From the NCBI GenBank assembly GCA_021732785.1, contig JAKFUG010000033.1, positions 47,671 to 111,670 on the forward strand: a DNA stretch of 64,000 nucleotides, given 5' to 3'. This document shows, one piece after another, positions 173 to 33,844 of the stretch. Below the pieces are notes generated by a model. It searched no databases and had not been told where the DNA came from. It was given only the letters and a program-made list of their open reading frames with translations. Source of the DNA: Planctomycetaceae bacterium. Its GTDB lineage: Bacteria > Planctomycetota > Planctomycetia > Planctomycetales > Planctomycetaceae. The position numbers were made by a program, and so were the translations under genes. Numbering within the stretch: the first letter of the stretch is position 1; each line of letters starts with the position of its first letter.

Positions 173-1126
173 CTAGCCTTTTAGCCTTTGCACCTGTTCT
201 AACGCCAACGCAATATCGCTCAGCGTGGCCGTGGGAATCAATCCGCCGACCAACCGCCGGCAGAATTGATCGAGCATGACCTCGGCGCCACTCCGCTCCA
301 GTTCGAGATGCTCGACATTTTCTGCAGAATCCGCAGTGCTCCAGCGGATCCGGAAGGAGCCCGTGAGAACCGCCCTTCCCCGTTCGCACTCCACAACGGC
401 CTCCAAAGCGATATCCCGAGCGTCGAATAACTCGTTCGGTTCGTGGCAAAGTGTGATTTCGGCCGGTTCGAGATCCGGTCCGCGCGCTTCGGGGCGAAAC
501 GACAGAGCCCACTCGCCCGCATTTTCGCCGAATTTCGTCGAACTTAACGACAACAATTCCGCCCGGCGGCGCGTCACATAACAACACCAGTCGATTGCCG
601 CAGCGACAGCACAGCCGGAATCTTCGCCATCGCTTCGCCTGGGGGAATGAACTTGAACGCGAAGGTGCTTCACGGGCCCCAATCGCGTTGCGATCAACTC
701 GCGCAGCCGCGTTGTGGCGGGTTGAAAACGGAGCGATAACTCCGGCACGAGCATCACGCCGCGCGTTTGGGCGCACTCGGCCAGGTGATGCCAATCCGCC
801 GCCGATTCGTGCCAATTGCCGCCGAAAAACAGCGGTTTTTGGCGATCGCAGGCAAATTCGAGCGGCGTTAATCCATACCAGCCCGCGTCGAGAACCAGCA
901 CGCCGCTTAAACCGGGGTGCTCGATGACCTGCATCAACCCCGCGGCGACTTCGGCCCCGGTTTCCTGTGCCACACCCTGAGCGCGACTGAGAACGGGATC
1001 ATGCACGACCCGGATGCCCATTCGCTGCGACAATCGGCGCACAGCCGGTCGGTACCGTCGCTCCCAGGACGGACCGACACCGATCAACCCCAGGGAAAGC
1101 AGACCTGGAACGGGGCCGCGCCGCAA
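173..1126 (-). CDS. Gfo/Idh/MocA-like oxidoreductase, N-terminal-domain protein
   Basis: The 317-residue product starts with a Rossmann-like segment (GLIGVGPSWERRYRPAVRRL, about residues 13-32) and continues with the alternating strands and helices of the Gfo/Idh/MocA NAD(P)-binding domain, including a PLFFGGNWHESAADWHHLAE stretch and the RLGPVKHLRV segment that usually begins the second domain. Known members oxidise or reduce sugars and cyclitols. Here the nucleotide loop is GVGPSW rather than the usual GxGxxG, and the EKP motif is not obvious, so catalysis is uncertain. It is divergent from the next gene, with about 210 bases between the two starts. Family call is fairly sure; substrate unknown. 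Confidence 0.7.
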   Translation of the reverse strand: MRRGPVPGLLSLGLIGVGPSWERRYRPAVRRLSQRMGIRVVHDPVLSRAQGVAQETGAEVAAGLMQVIEHPGLSGVLVLDAGWYGLTPLEFACDRQKPLFFGGNWHESAADWHHLAECAQTRGVMLVPELSLRFQPATTRLRELIATRLGPVKHLRVQVHSPRRSDGEDSGCAVAAAIDWCCYVTRRRAELLSLSSTKFGENAGEWALSFRPEARGPDLEPAEITLCHEPNELFDARDIALEAVVECERGRAVLTGSFRIRWSTADSAENVEHLELERSGAEVMLDQFCRRLVGGLIPTATLSDIALALEQVQRLKG

Positions 1127-1339
1127 CAGCTTGACTCCTGTCAGTGCATATTGACAACCGGGGGCATGATACGCGAGGACGAATCACAAACACAATTGGC
1201 ATTTCGCTTTCCGGGCCGAAATCGCCGCCGACTTGACTTCTTTCCGCCGCATCCGGAGCATTCTACCAGCGGCCCAACGCGGCGAAAGACCTTCGAATTT
1301 CGACGATGCGGCCCCTGCCCCGCGAAAAGGAATTCCCTT

Positions 1340-2593
1340 ATGTCCGCATCGCATCCGACCAACAACCCGCATCGCTTTCATGAAGTGATTGAACTCCGCG
1401 GGCACATCATCGACAGCCTGATTCTGCCGAAAGTCCTCGACGAAATCACCACGCTGGGCGGAGAATACGAAAGTCAGGAAGTCCGCATCGGCCACCATCG
1501 GCATGACCCGAGTTATGTGCGACTGGAAGTGCGGGCCCCCACGGAAGAATGCCTCGAAACCATTCTCGTCGCCATCGGCCAACACGGGGCGGTTCCGGTC
1601 ACGCATCAGGATTGCCGCCACGTCACGGCGGACATTGCGGGGGCGTTTCCCGAAGGGTTTTACGCTTCGACTAATGAGCCGACCGAAGTGCGGATTGCAG
1701 GGCATTGGGTGCCGGTCGAACGGCAGGAAATGGACTGCGGCATCAAGATCGATGTGGCAGCCAACCGCGCGGTTTGTGTGCCGATGGTCGAAGTCCAACT
1801 CGGCGATCAGATCGTGGTGGGACGCCTCGGAACGCGCGTGCAACCGGTGGGACGGGATGTCGATCGCCCCCACTCGTTCGGCTTCATGAACAGCACGGTT
1901 TCCAGCGAAAAACCGAAGAATGTCACGGTTCGCGAGATCGCCGAGCAAATGCGGGCGGCCGCGCGCGGCGACGGCAAAATCCTGATCGTTGCCGGCCCGG
2001 CCGTCGTTCACACTGGCAGCCGCGAATTGATGAGCTGGATGATCAACAAGGGCTATGTGGACGTCCTCTTCGCCGGCAATGCACTGGCCACCCACGACAT
2101 CGAGCAGTCGTTCTATGGCACGAGCCTAGGAATTTCGATGGAGCACGGCGGCGGCACCGAAGAGGGGCACGAGCACCATCTGCGGTCGATCAACCGCATC
2201 CGCCGCATCGGCAGCATCCGGGCCGCGGTCGATCAGGGCGTGTTGACGCAGGGCATTATGTATGAATGTATTCGCCGCAACATTCCGTATGTATTGGCCG
2301 GCAGTATTCGTGATGACGGCCCGTTGCCGGATGTCATTACCGATTCATTAGTCGCCCAGACTACGATGCGCGATCTGGTACAGGATGTGACCTTCTGCCT
2401 GATGATTGCGACGACGCTGCATTCGATCGCGGTGGGGAATCTGCTGTCGTCGAAAGTGAAAGTCGTGTGCGTCGACATCAACCCCGCGACGGTCACAAAA
2501 CTCGCCGACCGCGGCACGTTTCAATCCATCGGCCTGGTGACCGACGTCGAACCGTTCCTGCGCATTCTCGTTCAGGAATTAGGCGGGCCGTAG
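1340..2593 (+). CDS. LOR/SDH-type (TIGR00300) family protein, putative ornithine cyclodeaminase
   Basis: The product is 417 residues if translation starts at the ATG at 1340, which has an AAAAGGA ribosome binding site just upstream. The reading frame is open for another 141 codons upstream, but that part has no protein-like character. The sequence resembles the LOR/SDH conserved-region family: N-terminal FHEVIELRGHIIDSLILPKV, a middle block with KILIVAGPAVVHTGS, then VDVLFAGNALATHDIEQS and a C-terminal VKVVCVDINPATVTKL. Archaeal members and the C-terminal half of cyanobacterial AgrE/ArgZ act in arginine/ornithine to proline conversion, using NAD. It stands alone here, with no arginine genes beside it, so the reaction is inferred from the family. 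Confidence 0.8.
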   Translation: MSASHPTNNPHRFHEVIELRGHIIDSLILPKVLDEITTLGGEYESQEVRIGHHRHDPSYVRLEVRAPTEECLETILVAIGQHGAVPVTHQDCRHVTADIAGAFPEGFYASTNEPTEVRIAGHWVPVERQEMDCGIKIDVAANRAVCVPMVEVQLGDQIVVGRLGTRVQPVGRDVDRPHSFGFMNSTVSSEKPKNVTVREIAEQMRAAARGDGKILIVAGPAVVHTGSRELMSWMINKGYVDVLFAGNALATHDIEQSFYGTSLGISMEHGGGTEEGHEHHLRSINRIRRIGSIRAAVDQGVLTQGIMYECIRRNIPYVLAGSIRDDGPLPDVITDSLVAQTTMRDLVQDVTFCLMIATTLHSIAVGNLLSSKVKVVCVDINPATVTKLADRGTFQSIGLVTDVEPFLRILVQELGGP

Positions 2594-2634: not shown

Positions 2635-3144
2635 TTAATTTCGCAACATCGCGGGAACGTGGCAGGCAATGCACGAATCGACCACTGCCTGGGCGTTGCC
2701 GCGCAGGAGGGTGTTTTCATCATCCCGCGGCGGCCACAAGCAGGCCGTCGCCTGTGGGGGAAGTGCATTCGACGTGTTCACGTGCGCGGACTCCGGCGGC
2801 TTGCCGATGGCGAAGACGCCGAAGGCCATGCCGAACATGGCGACTAACGCCATTCCCAATGCTTTGCGGGAGTAGCAGCCCAAGCCGCGGCGCGGAAACC
2901 GGCGGGCCACTTCCGTGGCAATCGCGACCGATTCGTCGGTGAGCAACGGTGAATCACCCGGCGTCCAACTGCGGGCAGACGGCGTGAAATCGTCGTGTGA
3001 CGCGGACTGCAACCAGTCCAACGCGGGCGATAATGTCTGCTGCATCGCCCGGCAACGCGGACACTGTTCGAGATGCCGCACGAGACCGGCATCGGCCGTG
3101 GCATTCGCTTCCGTCAACCGTTCAAAGGCTTGATCGCAATTCAT
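2635..3144 (-). CDS. Anti-sigma factor with zf-HC2-like finger and C-terminal CxxCH motif
   Basis: This 169-residue protein starts with an anti-sigma zinc finger (H24..C28..C31, in HLEQCPRC), which in the zf-HC2/ZAS family binds zinc and holds an ECF sigma factor. One membrane segment follows at about residues 96-114. The C-terminal part, expected outside the cytoplasm, ends with SCIACH (C158, C161, H162), the signature for covalent haem c or for a redox/metal site. The start overlaps the stop of the sigma factor gene by 4 bases (ATGA), so the two are translationally coupled. The finger is well supported; haem binding is only a possibility. Confidence 0.8.
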   Translation of the reverse strand: MNCDQAFERLTEANATADAGLVRHLEQCPRCRAMQQTLSPALDWLQSASHDDFTPSARSWTPGDSPLLTDESVAIATEVARRFPRRGLGCYSRKALGMALVAMFGMAFGVFAIGKPPESAHVNTSNALPPQATACLWPPRDDENTLLRGNAQAVVDSCIACHVPAMLRN

Positions 3145-3707
3145 GATTCCCCTCCCGACAACATCTGCAGACGGTCCGCGAGGCGTTCCAAACCGTGTTT
3201 CACGCGCTGCTTGGCCCCACTCACGCTGGAGTCCATCGCCGCGGCGATTTCTTCAAACTTCAACCCGGCAAAAAAACGTAACCGCAACGCATCCGCCTCG
3301 GCTTCCGGCAACTGCGTTAGCGATTGATGCAACAAATCCTGACGTTCACTCACCAGGAGTTGGTCCAAACCACTTTCATGACAGCCGGCGTTGGCATCCG
3401 CGCACATGGGATCGATGCTCCCCCCGGCCCTGACCGGTCGGCTTTCCCGTTGCCGGTGCTTTTGACACAGCCGCAACAGGATCGTCCACATCCACGTGCG
3501 AAACGCGAATTGCGGGTTGAACGTGTGCCGGGCCGCGAACGCCGCGAGCAGCGCTTCCTGCACCAAGTCTTCCGCGGCCAACCGGTCGCCGAGTTTACTG
3601 GCCGCGACACGAATCAACGGACCGCGATAGCGACGCACCAACTCTTCAAAGGCGGAGCGGTCTCCGACTTGCGAGCGGCACATCAAATCTTCGTCGCGCG
3701 GTTCCAT
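3141..3707 (-). CDS. ECF RNA polymerase sigma factor
   Basis: From the ATG at 3707 the product has 188 residues. The frame stays open 37 codons further upstream, but the extra stretch is basic and not sigma-like. Region 2 is seen in FEELVRRYRGPLIRVAASKL and DLVQEALLAAF, with the FRTWMWTILLRLCQ segment contacting the -10 element. Region 4 is LPEAEADALRLRFF, FEEIAAAM and VSGAKQRVKHGLERLADRL. The linker carries two Cys residues (CADANAGC). It is co-transcribed with the downstream anti-sigma factor gene and overlaps it by 4 bases. Target genes are unknown; such factors often regulate their own operon. Confidence 0.92.
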   Translation of the reverse strand: MEPRDEDLMCRSQVGDRSAFEELVRRYRGPLIRVAASKLGDRLAAEDLVQEALLAAFAARHTFNPQFAFRTWMWTILLRLCQKHRQRESRPVRAGGSIDPMCADANAGCHESGLDQLLVSERQDLLHQSLTQLPEAEADALRLRFFAGLKFEEIAAAMDSSVSGAKQRVKHGLERLADRLQMLSGGES

Positions 3708-5961: not shown

Positions 5962-6378
5962 TCATCCGCCGAAATAGACCGCCGCGATAACGCCACCGAG
6001 AATGAGGGCCATAACCAACATCCAGATGGCAATCGGCATCGGGCTGGCAATCGGAATCCCCTTGCGCTGCGCGAGGGCTTCCATGGCCTGTTTCGAATCG
6101 AACAGATCGTGGCCGGTGGCATCGCGATAGTGCTTGATGGCCCCGACGAAGTTGCCGCCGCGCAAGTGATCGACGAGCTGGTGTTCCAAATCCGCGGCCA
6201 GCTCCGCCGACGATTCGGGAAGTTCGCCGGTCTTCAACGACTGTTCGAGCGCATCGACGAACGACTTGGCCTCGGCCAGTCCCACGCCGGTTTCTTCGCG
6301 ATAGCGTTTGATGGCCTCGATCTTCATTCCGTGCCGCAGTGCGTCCACCACGTCGCGCCGCCACGGTTCATCGGACAT
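5962..6378 (-). CDS. Membrane protein with two ribosomal L7/L12 C-terminal-like repeats
   Basis: The 138-residue product starts at the ATG at 6378 (MSDEPWRRDVVDAL); the open frame upstream has no recognisable protein. Two similar segments occur in tandem: DALRHGMKIEAIKRYREETG..LAEAKSFVDAL and DHLRGGNFVGAIKHYRDATG..LFDSKQAMEAL. Both follow the pattern of the ribosomal protein L7/L12 C-terminal domain (I.AIK..R..TG..L.EAK..V), which in other proteins is an interaction module. A single C-terminal membrane segment (IAIWMLVMALILGGVIAAVY) makes it tail-anchored with the repeats in the cytoplasm. It is not a ribosomal protein; its partner is unknown. Confidence 0.75.
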   Translation of the reverse strand: MSDEPWRRDVVDALRHGMKIEAIKRYREETGVGLAEAKSFVDALEQSLKTGELPESSAELAADLEHQLVDHLRGGNFVGAIKHYRDATGHDLFDSKQAMEALAQRKGIPIASPMPIAIWMLVMALILGGVIAAVYFGG

Positions 6379-6666
6379 GGTTCCGTCTCCGAAACATGCT
6401 CCCGCGCGGAGCCACAAACAACGAGGCGTTTCGTGATGCAGACCCACTTTACTGATCCCCGCGGCGGAGTCATACCGAACGGCCCACATTGGCGTTCGGC
6501 CAGCGAGCCGACTTGAAATGCTTAAGTCCACGACCACACGATGAACGGTAAAGCCCGCTTCCGCGCGGTGCTCATTGGACATCAGGGGCTCGGGATTTCG
6601 GCCTTGTTGGTTCGCGTTTTGCGAACTAACATTGAGGGCGATGCTGCCGGGAGTCAAACTCAAAGA
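6379..6666. other. Intergenic region without visible gene
   Basis: About 290 bases between the L7/L12-like gene and the IS200-type element. I see no credible reading frame, repeat or RNA structure here. Confidence 0.4.
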
Positions 6667-6727: not shown

Positions 6728-7171
6728 TCACGATGGGGTCACTTGAAAATCGTCACCGCCGTCCTGGGGTTCGGTTCCTTCCTGTTGCCGGATGTACTCC
6801 ATGATCACTTCATCCGTCACCGTCCCGCTCGAGGCCACGAAATATCCCCGCGCCCACAAGTGGCGGCCCCAGTATTGCTTTTGCAGATGGTGGTACTCCA
6901 TCAGCAGCTTTCGAGACGTCTTCCCCTTGATGGATTGCATGACCTGGCTCGGGGAGATGTTCGGCGGGCAAGACAGCAACACGTGGACATGGTCTCGTGA
7001 GACGGCCCCTCGGAGGATCTCGATCTCATGCGTGCGACAAATCTCCCGCACCAGATCCCGCAGGCGAACCCCAACGGGACCGCTTAAAACCCCTTTGCGA
7101 TACTTCGTCACCCACACAAAGTGGTATTTGATGTCGAAGCGGGTGTGAGCCCCTGTCCGATAGTTTTCCAT
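6728..7171 (-). CDS. tnpA: IS200-like transposase (Y1 HUH)
   Basis: The 147-residue product carries the hallmarks of TnpA: FDIKYHFVWVTKYRK near the N-terminus, the metal-binding HUH motif in RDHVHVLLSCPP, the SIKGKTSRKLL helix, RHLWARGYFVASSG, and the catalytic tyrosine helix in IMEYIRQQEG. Known enzymes cut and join single-stranded DNA at hairpin ends through a 5'-phosphotyrosine. The length is normal for the family and no inactivating change is seen, so it is probably functional. No tnpB is next to it. The acidic tail (QDGGDDFQVTPS) is outside the conserved fold. Confidence 0.93.
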   Translation of the reverse strand: MENYRTGAHTRFDIKYHFVWVTKYRKGVLSGPVGVRLRDLVREICRTHEIEILRGAVSRDHVHVLLSCPPNISPSQVMQSIKGKTSRKLLMEYHHLQKQYWGRHLWARGYFVASSGTVTDEVIMEYIRQQEGTEPQDGGDDFQVTPS

Positions 7172-30752: not shown

Positions 30753-31379
30753 ATGTCGATGGCCTCGCCCGAAACCCGCTGGAGTTTGGTGGTTCGTCTG
30801 CAGGACGAGCGGGATGAAGCGGCGTGGCAGGAATTCATTGCCGAATATGAACCGTTTCTGCTGACGTATCTCCATCGGCGGGGCTTGCAGGAGGCCGATG
30901 CGCGGGATGTCGCGCAGCAGGTGATGACGTCGATTTGCCAATCGGTCGCCAACTGGAAACCGGATGGCAAGCCGGGGGCCTTTCGCCGGTGGATCGCCAC
31001 GATTGCCCGGCATGCGGCGATCAAGTTTTTACAACGGAAAGCGCGGCAGCCCGACAGCGGCGGCGGGACCGCGTTCCTCGCCCGCATGAACGAAGTGGCG
31101 GATGGGGAAGACGACACCGCAGCCCAGCAGGAATATCAACAGGCGGTCTTCGCCTGGGCCGCATCGCAAGTGAAAGACGAGTTCCGCGAAACGACGTGGA
31201 AAGCCTTCTGGGAGACGTTGGTCATGCACCGTCCGATTGATGTCGTCGCCAAGGAACTCGGGTTATCGACGGGAGCCGTGTACATGGCCCGCAGTCGGAT
31301 TATGGCCCGCTTGCGAATTCAGGTGGCGAAGGTGCTGGATGAAAGGGGACCACTCCTTGTCGGTGGAGAGCAAACATGA
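30753..31379 (+). CDS. ECF RNA polymerase sigma factor
   Basis: 208 residues from the ATG at 30753 (the one at 30759 is also possible); the open frame upstream runs through the family A repeat. Region 2 is AWQEFIAEYEPFLLTYLHRR, DARDVAQQVMTSICQSV and FRRWIATIARHAAIKFL. Region 4 is FRETTWKAFWETLVMHRPID, VVAKELGLSTGAVYMARSRI and MARLRIQVAKVL. This long-spaced variant with W-K-A-F-W is typical for planctomycete ECF factors linked to protein kinases. The stop overlaps the kinase start by 4 bases (ATGA), so the two are co-translated and surely work together. Confidence 0.92.
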   Translation: MSMASPETRWSLVVRLQDERDEAAWQEFIAEYEPFLLTYLHRRGLQEADARDVAQQVMTSICQSVANWKPDGKPGAFRRWIATIARHAAIKFLQRKARQPDSGGGTAFLARMNEVADGEDDTAAQQEYQQAVFAWAASQVKDEFRETTWKAFWETLVMHRPIDVVAKELGLSTGAVYMARSRIMARLRIQVAKVLDERGPLLVGGEQT

Positions 31380-33844
31380 TTCCTCAAGCCCCGGATTGTC
31401 CGAAAGAGTTACTCACGCGCTGCCTGCAGGATTCGCTGGCCACCGTCGAGGAACAACACCTGGAAGCACACCTCACGCAATGTGCGGCGTGTCGTGCCGA
31501 GTTGGAACGCCTCGCCGCCGAGGAACGCGATTGGGGAACCGCGGGCACCATCCTGCGACAGGTGGCCGATCGGGAAAAACCCACTCCTTCCGTTGAAGAA
31601 GTCGACGGTGCTTCGGGCGAAGGACCGGAGTGGTATCGCGCCTGTCCTGTCGATTTCGCCGTCGATTTTCTGATGCCCGCAGCGACACCGAACGGACTCG
31701 GCCGGCTCGATGACATCGAGATTCTGGAAGTCGTCGGTCGGGGGTCGTCGGGGATTGTGTTGAAGGGCTGGCAGGAAGCGCTCAAGCGGTTGGTCGCCGT
31801 CAAGATGCTGCGTCCTGAAGTCGCGGAGCATGCCGCCGCGCGGAGACGATTTGTCCGGGAAGCGCAAGCCGCGGCGGCGGTGATTCATCCCCATGTGATG
31901 CCGATCCATGCGATTCAAGCCCAGGGGCGGTTGCCGTATCTCATCATGCCGTTCCTCGATTGCGAATCTCTGCAGCAGCGGTTGGACCGTCAGGGACCGT
32001 TGGAACTCGTTGAGCAACTCACCATCGGCCTGCAAATCGCGCAGGCTTTGCAGGCCGCGCATGCTCGTGGGTTGGTCCATCGCGATGTGAAGCCCGCGAA
32101 CATTCTACTGGAAAAGAAAGGCCATCATGCGTGGCTCGCTGACTTCGGTCTGGCCCGCGCGGTTGATGATGCGTCCCTGACGCGCACCGGGGTGATCGCC
32201 GGGACGCCGCAATACATGTCGCCCGAACAGGCCCGCGGCGATGCCATCGATCATCGCACCGATCTCTTCAGCTTCGGCAGCGTGCTGTATGCGATGGCCG
32301 CCGGGCGTCCGCCGTTCCGTGCGGAAACCACGTTCGGCGTGCTCAAACGGATCTGTGGATCGAAAGCCCGCCGGTTGCATGAGATTCAACCCTCCACGCC
32401 CGATTGGCTGGAAACCTTGATCGATCACCTGCATCAGAAGTCGCCGAACGATCGGCTCGGCTCGGCGGCGGATGTCGCAGAATTGCTGGAAGACTGCCTG
32501 CGACACGTGCAGCAACCGGCGATTTACGCGCTGCCCGATGATCTGTGCATCACGCTCACGTCCCCTTCTCCGCCCGTGCTCCGGGAACACGTCCCGGTCT
32601 CGCGCTGGTGGTTCCTCGTCGTCTTTCTGCTCGGAGGCGTCGCCATGTCTGCCGCTTTATTGCCCGTTGGTCTCGTCGCCATGTGGATGCTGGCCGGCAC
32701 AGGGATGCCCCAGCGCCAGTCCGATCCGAATATCCTGACGGAGATTCCCACCACAGTATCGCCTGCCGAACAGCCCACCGTTGAACCGCTCACGATCGTC
32801 AAGAAGGCACGCGCTGCCGATGTGGCGACTCCATCGAGCCATCTCGACACCGTCCCGGAAAAGAATTCGGCGTCCACTCCGGATGGATCGGCGAACCAGC
32901 TCGCTCAGAATGCACCGCGGAACAAGAAGAAAAAAGCCGCCGCGAAGGAAGCCCCCAAGGACGCCCCGGCGGTCGGCGACGAGAAATACGCTTCGGCCGA
33001 AGAAGCATATCGCCTCGGCACAGGTTTCCTGTATGCCCAGGAAAGTGCGAAGGCCCAGGAACCGCTCGAAGCCGCACTCCGAATGGCCCGCGATGACGAA
33101 TATAAAGCCAAAGTCTACCGGGCACTTCTTCCCGCATACACGATTGCGGCCGAGTGGACACTGAAAGCGACCGCCCTGGAATTCATCATCGCGCATTCGG
33201 AACGAGCTGCCGAACGGTCGCTGGCGCGATCGGAACTCCTCAGCTTTCTCCGTCAACGTGGGAAAACCGCCGATGCTGCCAAACGGTATGAGGCGAAGTT
33301 GAAGGAAAACGCGGACGATGTCGGCACGCTCTACATTCTGTGCGAATTCTACGGCCGCCTGGTGGATGATCCGCAACGAGCCGTGGTGATGCTCGAGCGC
33401 TATGCCCGCATCAAAGAGCAGGACGAAGAGGGCTTCAGCGTCTCCGATGCCGCCGATCTTGCAGCTCAATATGTGAAAGCGAAACAACAGGCCAAAGGTG
33501 CGGAACTCTTCGAGAAGACGGCGGCGCGGGACGACAGCCTCGCTGCATGGCATTACAAGGAAGCCGCCGCCGCGTGGCTGGCTGCGAAGGACAAACCGAA
33601 AGCGCTCGCCGCCGCGAAGAAATCGGAAGCCGATCAACCGGAGCGCCGGTCAGAACAGTTGGAATACTTCTGGCACCGCAATCTGGCGGATGTGTTCCTC
33701 GATGCTGGCGACCCCGTCTCCGCCATCCCGCATTACGAAGCCGCTGTTGGTCTTACCAAGATCGAAGGCTATCGCAAAGACAGCGAACAACGCCTGATGG
33801 ACGCCCAACGCAAAGCGGAAAAGCTAACCCCCGAGACGAAATGA
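31376..33844 (+). CDS. Ser/Thr protein kinase with N-terminal anti-sigma zinc finger and C-terminal TPRs
   Basis: 822 residues. The first 50 carry an anti-sigma-type zinc finger (H32, C36, C39 in AHLTQCAACRAEL). The Hanks-type kinase domain runs from about 115 to 375: glycine loop GRGSSGIVLK, catalytic K143 (VAVKML), HRDVKPANILL with D237, DFGLA at 256-260 and GTPQYMSPEQ. All catalytic residues are present. A membrane region (about 411-441) puts the C-terminal, TPR-like part (ASAEEAYRLGTGFLYAQESA, AKQQAKGAELFEKTAARDDS) outside the cytoplasm. The overlapping ECF gene is the obvious partner: the finger may hold the sigma factor until phosphorylation releases it. Confidence 0.93.
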   Translation: MIPQAPDCPKELLTRCLQDSLATVEEQHLEAHLTQCAACRAELERLAAEERDWGTAGTILRQVADREKPTPSVEEVDGASGEGPEWYRACPVDFAVDFLMPAATPNGLGRLDDIEILEVVGRGSSGIVLKGWQEALKRLVAVKMLRPEVAEHAAARRRFVREAQAAAAVIHPHVMPIHAIQAQGRLPYLIMPFLDCESLQQRLDRQGPLELVEQLTIGLQIAQALQAAHARGLVHRDVKPANILLEKKGHHAWLADFGLARAVDDASLTRTGVIAGTPQYMSPEQARGDAIDHRTDLFSFGSVLYAMAAGRPPFRAETTFGVLKRICGSKARRLHEIQPSTPDWLETLIDHLHQKSPNDRLGSAADVAELLEDCLRHVQQPAIYALPDDLCITLTSPSPPVLREHVPVSRWWFLVVFLLGGVAMSAALLPVGLVAMWMLAGTGMPQRQSDPNILTEIPTTVSPAEQPTVEPLTIVKKARAADVATPSSHLDTVPEKNSASTPDGSANQLAQNAPRNKKKKAAAKEAPKDAPAVGDEKYASAEEAYRLGTGFLYAQESAKAQEPLEAALRMARDDEYKAKVYRALLPAYTIAAEWTLKATALEFIIAHSERAAERSLARSELLSFLRQRGKTADAAKRYEAKLKENADDVGTLYILCEFYGRLVDDPQRAVVMLERYARIKEQDEEGFSVSDAADLAAQYVKAKQQAKGAELFEKTAARDDSLAAWHYKEAAAAWLAAKDKPKALAAAKKSEADQPERRSEQLEYFWHRNLADVFLDAGDPVSAIPHYEAAVGLTKIEGYRKDSEQRLMDAQRKAEKLTPETK

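Follow-up and report, generated by a model that had tools for sequence, protein, structure and literature searches.

A strictly conserved, predicted exported CxxCH motif in the anti-sigma factor of a planctomycete ECF gene pair: a candidate haem c switch

The window (the whole stretch of 64,000 nucleotides analysed here, from a Planctomycetaceae genome of 6.69 Mb in 96 contigs) was found to carry a gene for an ECF sigma factor together with one for an anti-sigma factor whose C-terminal tail bears a haem c attachment motif and a lone cysteine (C135), both kept throughout its family. It is proposed that this tail is exported and carries covalent haem c, perhaps with C135 as the distal ligand, and that the chemistry of the haem frees the sigma factor. 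Taken as a whole, the proposal is judged to have about the same chance of being right as of being wrong.

The sigma factor gene (3141..3707, minus strand) encodes a protein of 188 aa with Sigma70_r2 and Sigma70_r4 domains above the Pfam cut-offs, which places it among the ECF sigma factors (Sigma70_r2 at 56.9 bits against a cut-off of 24; r4_2 at 38.6 bits against 25.7). The anti-sigma factor gene (2635..3144, minus strand; 169 aa), recognised from its translation and its relatives, follows with a 4-base overlap between its ATG and the stop codon of the sigma gene. The first-pass annotation of this DNA had described an ECF sigma/anti-sigma pair, and both genes were found at the positions it gave. 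Across the 87 loci compared, the sigma gene adjoins the anti-sigma gene in 73, with a 4-base overlap in 44, and the anti-sigma protein probably holds back the sigma factor. A gene convergent with the anti-sigma gene (917-2593, plus strand) encodes LOR/SDH and ArgZ-like C-terminal domains; the first ~150 residues of this frame match nothing and its true start may be further in. On the other side of the pair lie a gene for a ribosomal L7/L12 C-terminal-like domain (5962-6663, minus strand; E 8.8e-11), with no ribosomal operon around it as far as seen, and an IS200-like Y1 transposase gene (6728-7171, minus strand; Pfam Y1_Tnp, E 1.6e-42). Further along the window, a Ser/Thr protein kinase (31376-33844, plus strand; Pfam Pkinase) has a weak N-terminal zf-HC2 match ahead of the kinase domain.

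With 13 near-identical loci of genus g56 left out, the pair itself is the only widely recurring unit among the conserved neighbours. A neighbouring gene that we take to be DUF1501-like occurs in 14 loci, in varied positions and on both strands, and at three loci (L159, L162 and L164) the unlinked sigma gene lies after a gene recognised by eye as encoding a ROK-like kinase. An autoregulated promoter was considered and set aside. The TTGCWT-N18-TAnAAT-like element conserved upstream of the sigma gene in g56 looks, from its sequence, like a housekeeping promoter, and no promoter motif common to the whole class was found; the regulon that the sigma factor would control could therefore not be sought.

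At its N-terminus the anti-sigma protein carries the zinc-finger type motif C3...H24xxxC28xxC31 (3052..3138, minus strand). The finger had been called zf-HC2-type in the first-pass annotation, and its cysteine and histidine residues are all present, but the match to the Pfam zf-HC2 model falls below the cut-off (14.7 against 22.2 bits). This sub-threshold match was the only one in Pfam at E ≤ 1, and NCBIfam at this limit gave nothing beyond its generic 'anti-sigma factor' model, which likewise fell short of the cut-off; of 63 relatives, 44 match that model at E ≤ 0.1. A search of PDB sequences with an N-terminal profile returned just two entries at E ≤ 1, both weak: 3hug_B (E 0.016) and RsiW (E 0.02). 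The former, described in the search output just as a conserved membrane protein, is presumably RslA. Neither the full model nor the N-terminal domain found a usable match in fold searches, where no anti-sigma fold was listed, a result that excludes nothing.

A single membrane helix is predicted at residues 95-113 (2806..2862, minus strand) from hydropathy, from a helix at 94-113 in the structure model and from the distribution of charge. In the window protein, six Lys/Arg residues fall within the 20 residues preceding the helix and one within the 20 that follow it; the means over 80 proteins are 4.3 and 1.5, respectively, with more before the helix in 75, equal numbers in two and fewer in three. 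Given one helix and this excess of Lys/Arg ahead of it, the tail with its CxxCH segment is predicted to lie outside, in agreement with the topology assumed in the first-pass annotation. The tail is 56 residues long, which is short for haem burial. It contains C135, within CLW (2740..2742, minus strand), and ends with C158-I-A-C161-H162, present as first described (CIACH, residues 158-162; 2659..2673, minus strand), followed by seven further residues. The structure model (mean pLDDT 75.6, pTM 0.40) has just one helix in the tail, at 151-168 around CxxCH, and no cytochrome fold. The window protein has no match to a Pfam cytochrome c domain at E ≤ 1 and some of its relatives match cytochrome families weakly (e.g., Cytochrome_C7 in 15 of 63, best 0.012), and it is therefore not filed as a cytochrome.

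Conservation was followed with a profile from 23 relatives, with which 150 genomes from the family and 248 from the class were searched. The best 20 candidates per genome were scored in the family, the best 12 in the class and the best 7 in the phylum, and class loci were taken in on matches stronger than ~1e-8. Strong anti-sigma matches (E below 1e-20) were found in 61 of the 150 family genomes, the next match being at 3.7e-7. After two weak matches without CxxCH (L022 and L023) had been dropped, there were 87 distinct proteins, of which 80 have a C-terminal CxxCH, one runs off the end of its contig and six stop just past the membrane helix. The first-pass annotation had named conservation in relatives as the point to examine, and the motif was found to be kept in all 62 full-length proteins of family f1 (L090, which runs off its contig, was dropped before this count). 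Nine alignment columns are identical in all 62, namely C3, H24, C28, C31, P40, C135, C158, C161 and H162. In the other tail columns the mean modal fraction is 0.34, and on this alignment the tail drifts apart from its three cysteines and one histidine. As the motif is retained in every one of these proteins while the remaining tail columns average so low, CxxCH is, as judged from sequence, more than a chance occurrence. A further alignment (A3) was made after the removal of 17 near-copies and of the proteins lacking CxxCH, and conservation of the motif in it is therefore by selection.

The same three cysteines, invariant as they are, could serve as a thiol-disulfide switch outside the membrane that responds to oxidants and needs no haem, and zinc-type anti-sigma factors are often involved in redox sensing according to the class I passages of PMC7406223. 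Such a switch, however, leaves unexplained why a histidine follows CxxC in 62/62, and it is further at odds with the haem attachment machinery described below; we consider it unlikely.

As a control, three genomes were examined at 30 of their 39 zf-HC2 places, yielding 22 readable Hx3Cx2C frames. When these were read to the end of each stretch, CxxCH followed the finger only in the two orthologues. In a draw of 392 genomes from the phylum, with a limit of E 1e-8 and the seven best candidates per genome, three matches were obtained outside the class (5e-10 to 2e-9), and none of these (L166-L168) has CxxCH after the matched part.

A sigma-first search was also run, because the anti-sigma profile contained the tail and so carried a risk of circularity. 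With a sigma profile from a 31-row alignment and a cut-off of E ≤ 1e-45, the sigma factor was detected in 61 of the 150 genomes, and 59 of these have a strong anti-sigma match (59 genomes with both genes, two with anti-sigma alone, two with sigma alone and 87 with neither). The two genomes with anti-sigma alone are 82% (G136) and 72% (G137) complete. One of the two with sigma alone (G106) has, where another contig begins, the anti-sigma tail complete with CxxCH and the lone cysteine, and counting it brings the anti-sigma gene to 60 of the 61 sigma-bearing genomes. In the other (G125), the protein that matches best is another kind of zinc-finger protein, which has no CxxCH. The two genes are unlinked yet both kept in five genomes (G006, G013, G019, G083 and G108). 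The six tail-less homologues all belong to family f11 (L091, L093, L096, L097, L105 and L108), are flanked by the same neighbours on either side and come from genomes in which no sigma factor of this group was found at E 1e-30; they may have another job.

A fused CcsBA haem c ligase (System II) was recognised in the genome that contains the window, where a single frame of 1201 aa matches both ResB and CcsA (Cytochrom_C_asm), and both domains score above cut-off in all 13 genomes tested, among them G000 and the f11 genomes. An exported CxxCH in a CcsBA-bearing cell should be haemylated by System II, and the motif of the window protein, if exported as predicted, would be expected to receive haem. 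This is the second point against a haem-free thiol switch. It also opens another possibility, in which the switch does not read the redox state of the bound haem: the tail would be a decoy substrate of CcsBA that monitors haem supply or cytochrome c maturation, with the apo tail being degraded at shortage and the freed sigma factor restoring supply. A tail that consists of hardly anything but a CxxCH-bearing helix and otherwise drifts is what a mimic of a ligase substrate could look like, and the relatives do tolerate either one site or two. On the other hand, it has no need of a lone cysteine that is invariant in 62/62, and the conserved neighbours include no recurring haem or ccs gene, and for these reasons this explanation is regarded as rather unlikely. 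The invariance of C135 is one of the grounds for preferring a haem whose own chemistry is read. C135 is put forward as distal ligand because it never varies and because, among the sCache_heme sensors, which carry CxxCH, both Tll0287 and a stand-alone member have haem c with Cys/His ligation (PMC12889525, excerpts).

Two CxxCH motifs are present in 31 of the 80 proteins, and some long-tailed proteins with one site have, by eye, the look of a decayed two-site form. Outside CxxCH, the tails of the 49 one-site proteins contain one cysteine in 41 cases and two in eight, and those of the two-site proteins contain two in 27 of 31. By count this link between sites and lone cysteines is strong, but site number changes only four times on the sigma tree (72 rows; sign-test median p of 1), and it was rejected as independent evidence. 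A metal site of three cysteines and one histidine would fit the same counts. C135, C158, C161 and H162 would in that case bind zinc, copper or another ion which controls the switch; these residues are suitable for the purpose, the number of lone cysteines tends to follow that of sites, and CorE sigma factors sense metal via Cys-rich tails (PMC8999054, excerpt). Nevertheless, the adjacent C161 and H162 would both have to bind one ion and none of the conserved neighbours was recognised as a metal-transport gene, which leaves a metal site improbable.

Other possible components of the switch were looked for. Cytochrome bd (PF01654) is present in 25 of the 61 sigma-bearing genomes vs 16 of the 89 others; 10 of the 25 belong to genus g56, without which the figures (15/50 vs 16/89) are not informative, and cytochrome bd was dropped as a correlate. 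Neither the neighbours, the promoter nor cytochrome bd provided a respiratory or redox link. The first-pass annotation had also drawn attention to two cysteines in the linker of the sigma factor. Both are there (C102 and C109), but the corresponding columns have cysteine in just two and three of 71 sigma factors, respectively, and they were discarded as part of the switch. C81 is a cysteine in 69 of the 71, and the column of C160 in 43.

We think that release of the sigma factor is decided by the haem chemistry or the haem occupancy of the tail. In the proposed mechanism, a class I zinc-finger (ZAS-type) anti-sigma factor anchored in the membrane would bind the product of the adjoining ECF sigma gene on the cytoplasmic side, while the CcsBA ligase would attach haem c covalently to CxxCH in the tail outside. 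H162 would be the proximal ligand of this haem and C135 probably the distal one. A change at the haem, be it in redox state, through NO or another ligand, or through peroxide, would alter the tail, and the altered anti-sigma factor would let go of the sigma factor through proteolysis or a conformational change. The sensor is more likely to be the tail than the zinc finger, since the zinc motif occurs in about half of membrane-bound class I anti-sigma factors and may be structural (PMC7406223, class I passages). More broadly, several planctomycete families may share a class of ECF anti-sigma factor with one or two exported haem c groups and a cysteine as distal ligand, coupling periplasmic haem redox or gas chemistry directly to sigma release, a generalisation for which the case seems evenly balanced. 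If true, it would make covalent haem a part of an ECF sigma/anti-sigma switch and add it to the known inputs of anti-sigma factors, and the cell may by this means monitor redox state, gases or the supply of haem. To our knowledge, few planctomycete ECF systems have a known signal. The strictly conserved motif, predicted to be exported, offers a concrete and testable cofactor for one of them.

The window protein resembles the zinc anti-sigma factors of class I (ASDI), such as RsiW, in its N-terminal Hx3Cx2C, its one helix and the adjoining ECF sigma gene, and differs from them in its predicted exported tail with an invariant CxxCH and lone cysteine. The word heme is absent from the class I passages of PMC7406223 and from the excerpts of two ECF reviews (PMC8103513; PMC8999054), and none of the titles and abstract starts among the full-text matches listed spoke of CxxCH or covalently bound haem in an anti-sigma factor, a search whose scope leaves out most subscription journals. 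In the HasS/HasI system, an outer-membrane receptor binds haem and an anti-sigma factor and ECF sigma factor respond (PMC11442138, excerpts). The pair described here would likewise react to haem located beyond the inner membrane, but here it is the anti-sigma factor that bears the motif, no receptor gene was recognised among the conserved neighbours and the window protein has no match to the FecR domain (FecR/HasS-type) at E ≤ 1. It has none at that limit to the Cache domain of the sCache_heme sensors (DUF3365/Tll0287) either, and its output is a sigma factor and not a kinase, chemoreceptor or cyclic-di-GMP enzyme. What it would have in common with those sensors is a conserved CxxCH in a signalling module that is exported, and if the proposal is correct it would be a further case, after sCache_heme, of a haem c fragment on a signalling protein (PMC12889525, excerpts).
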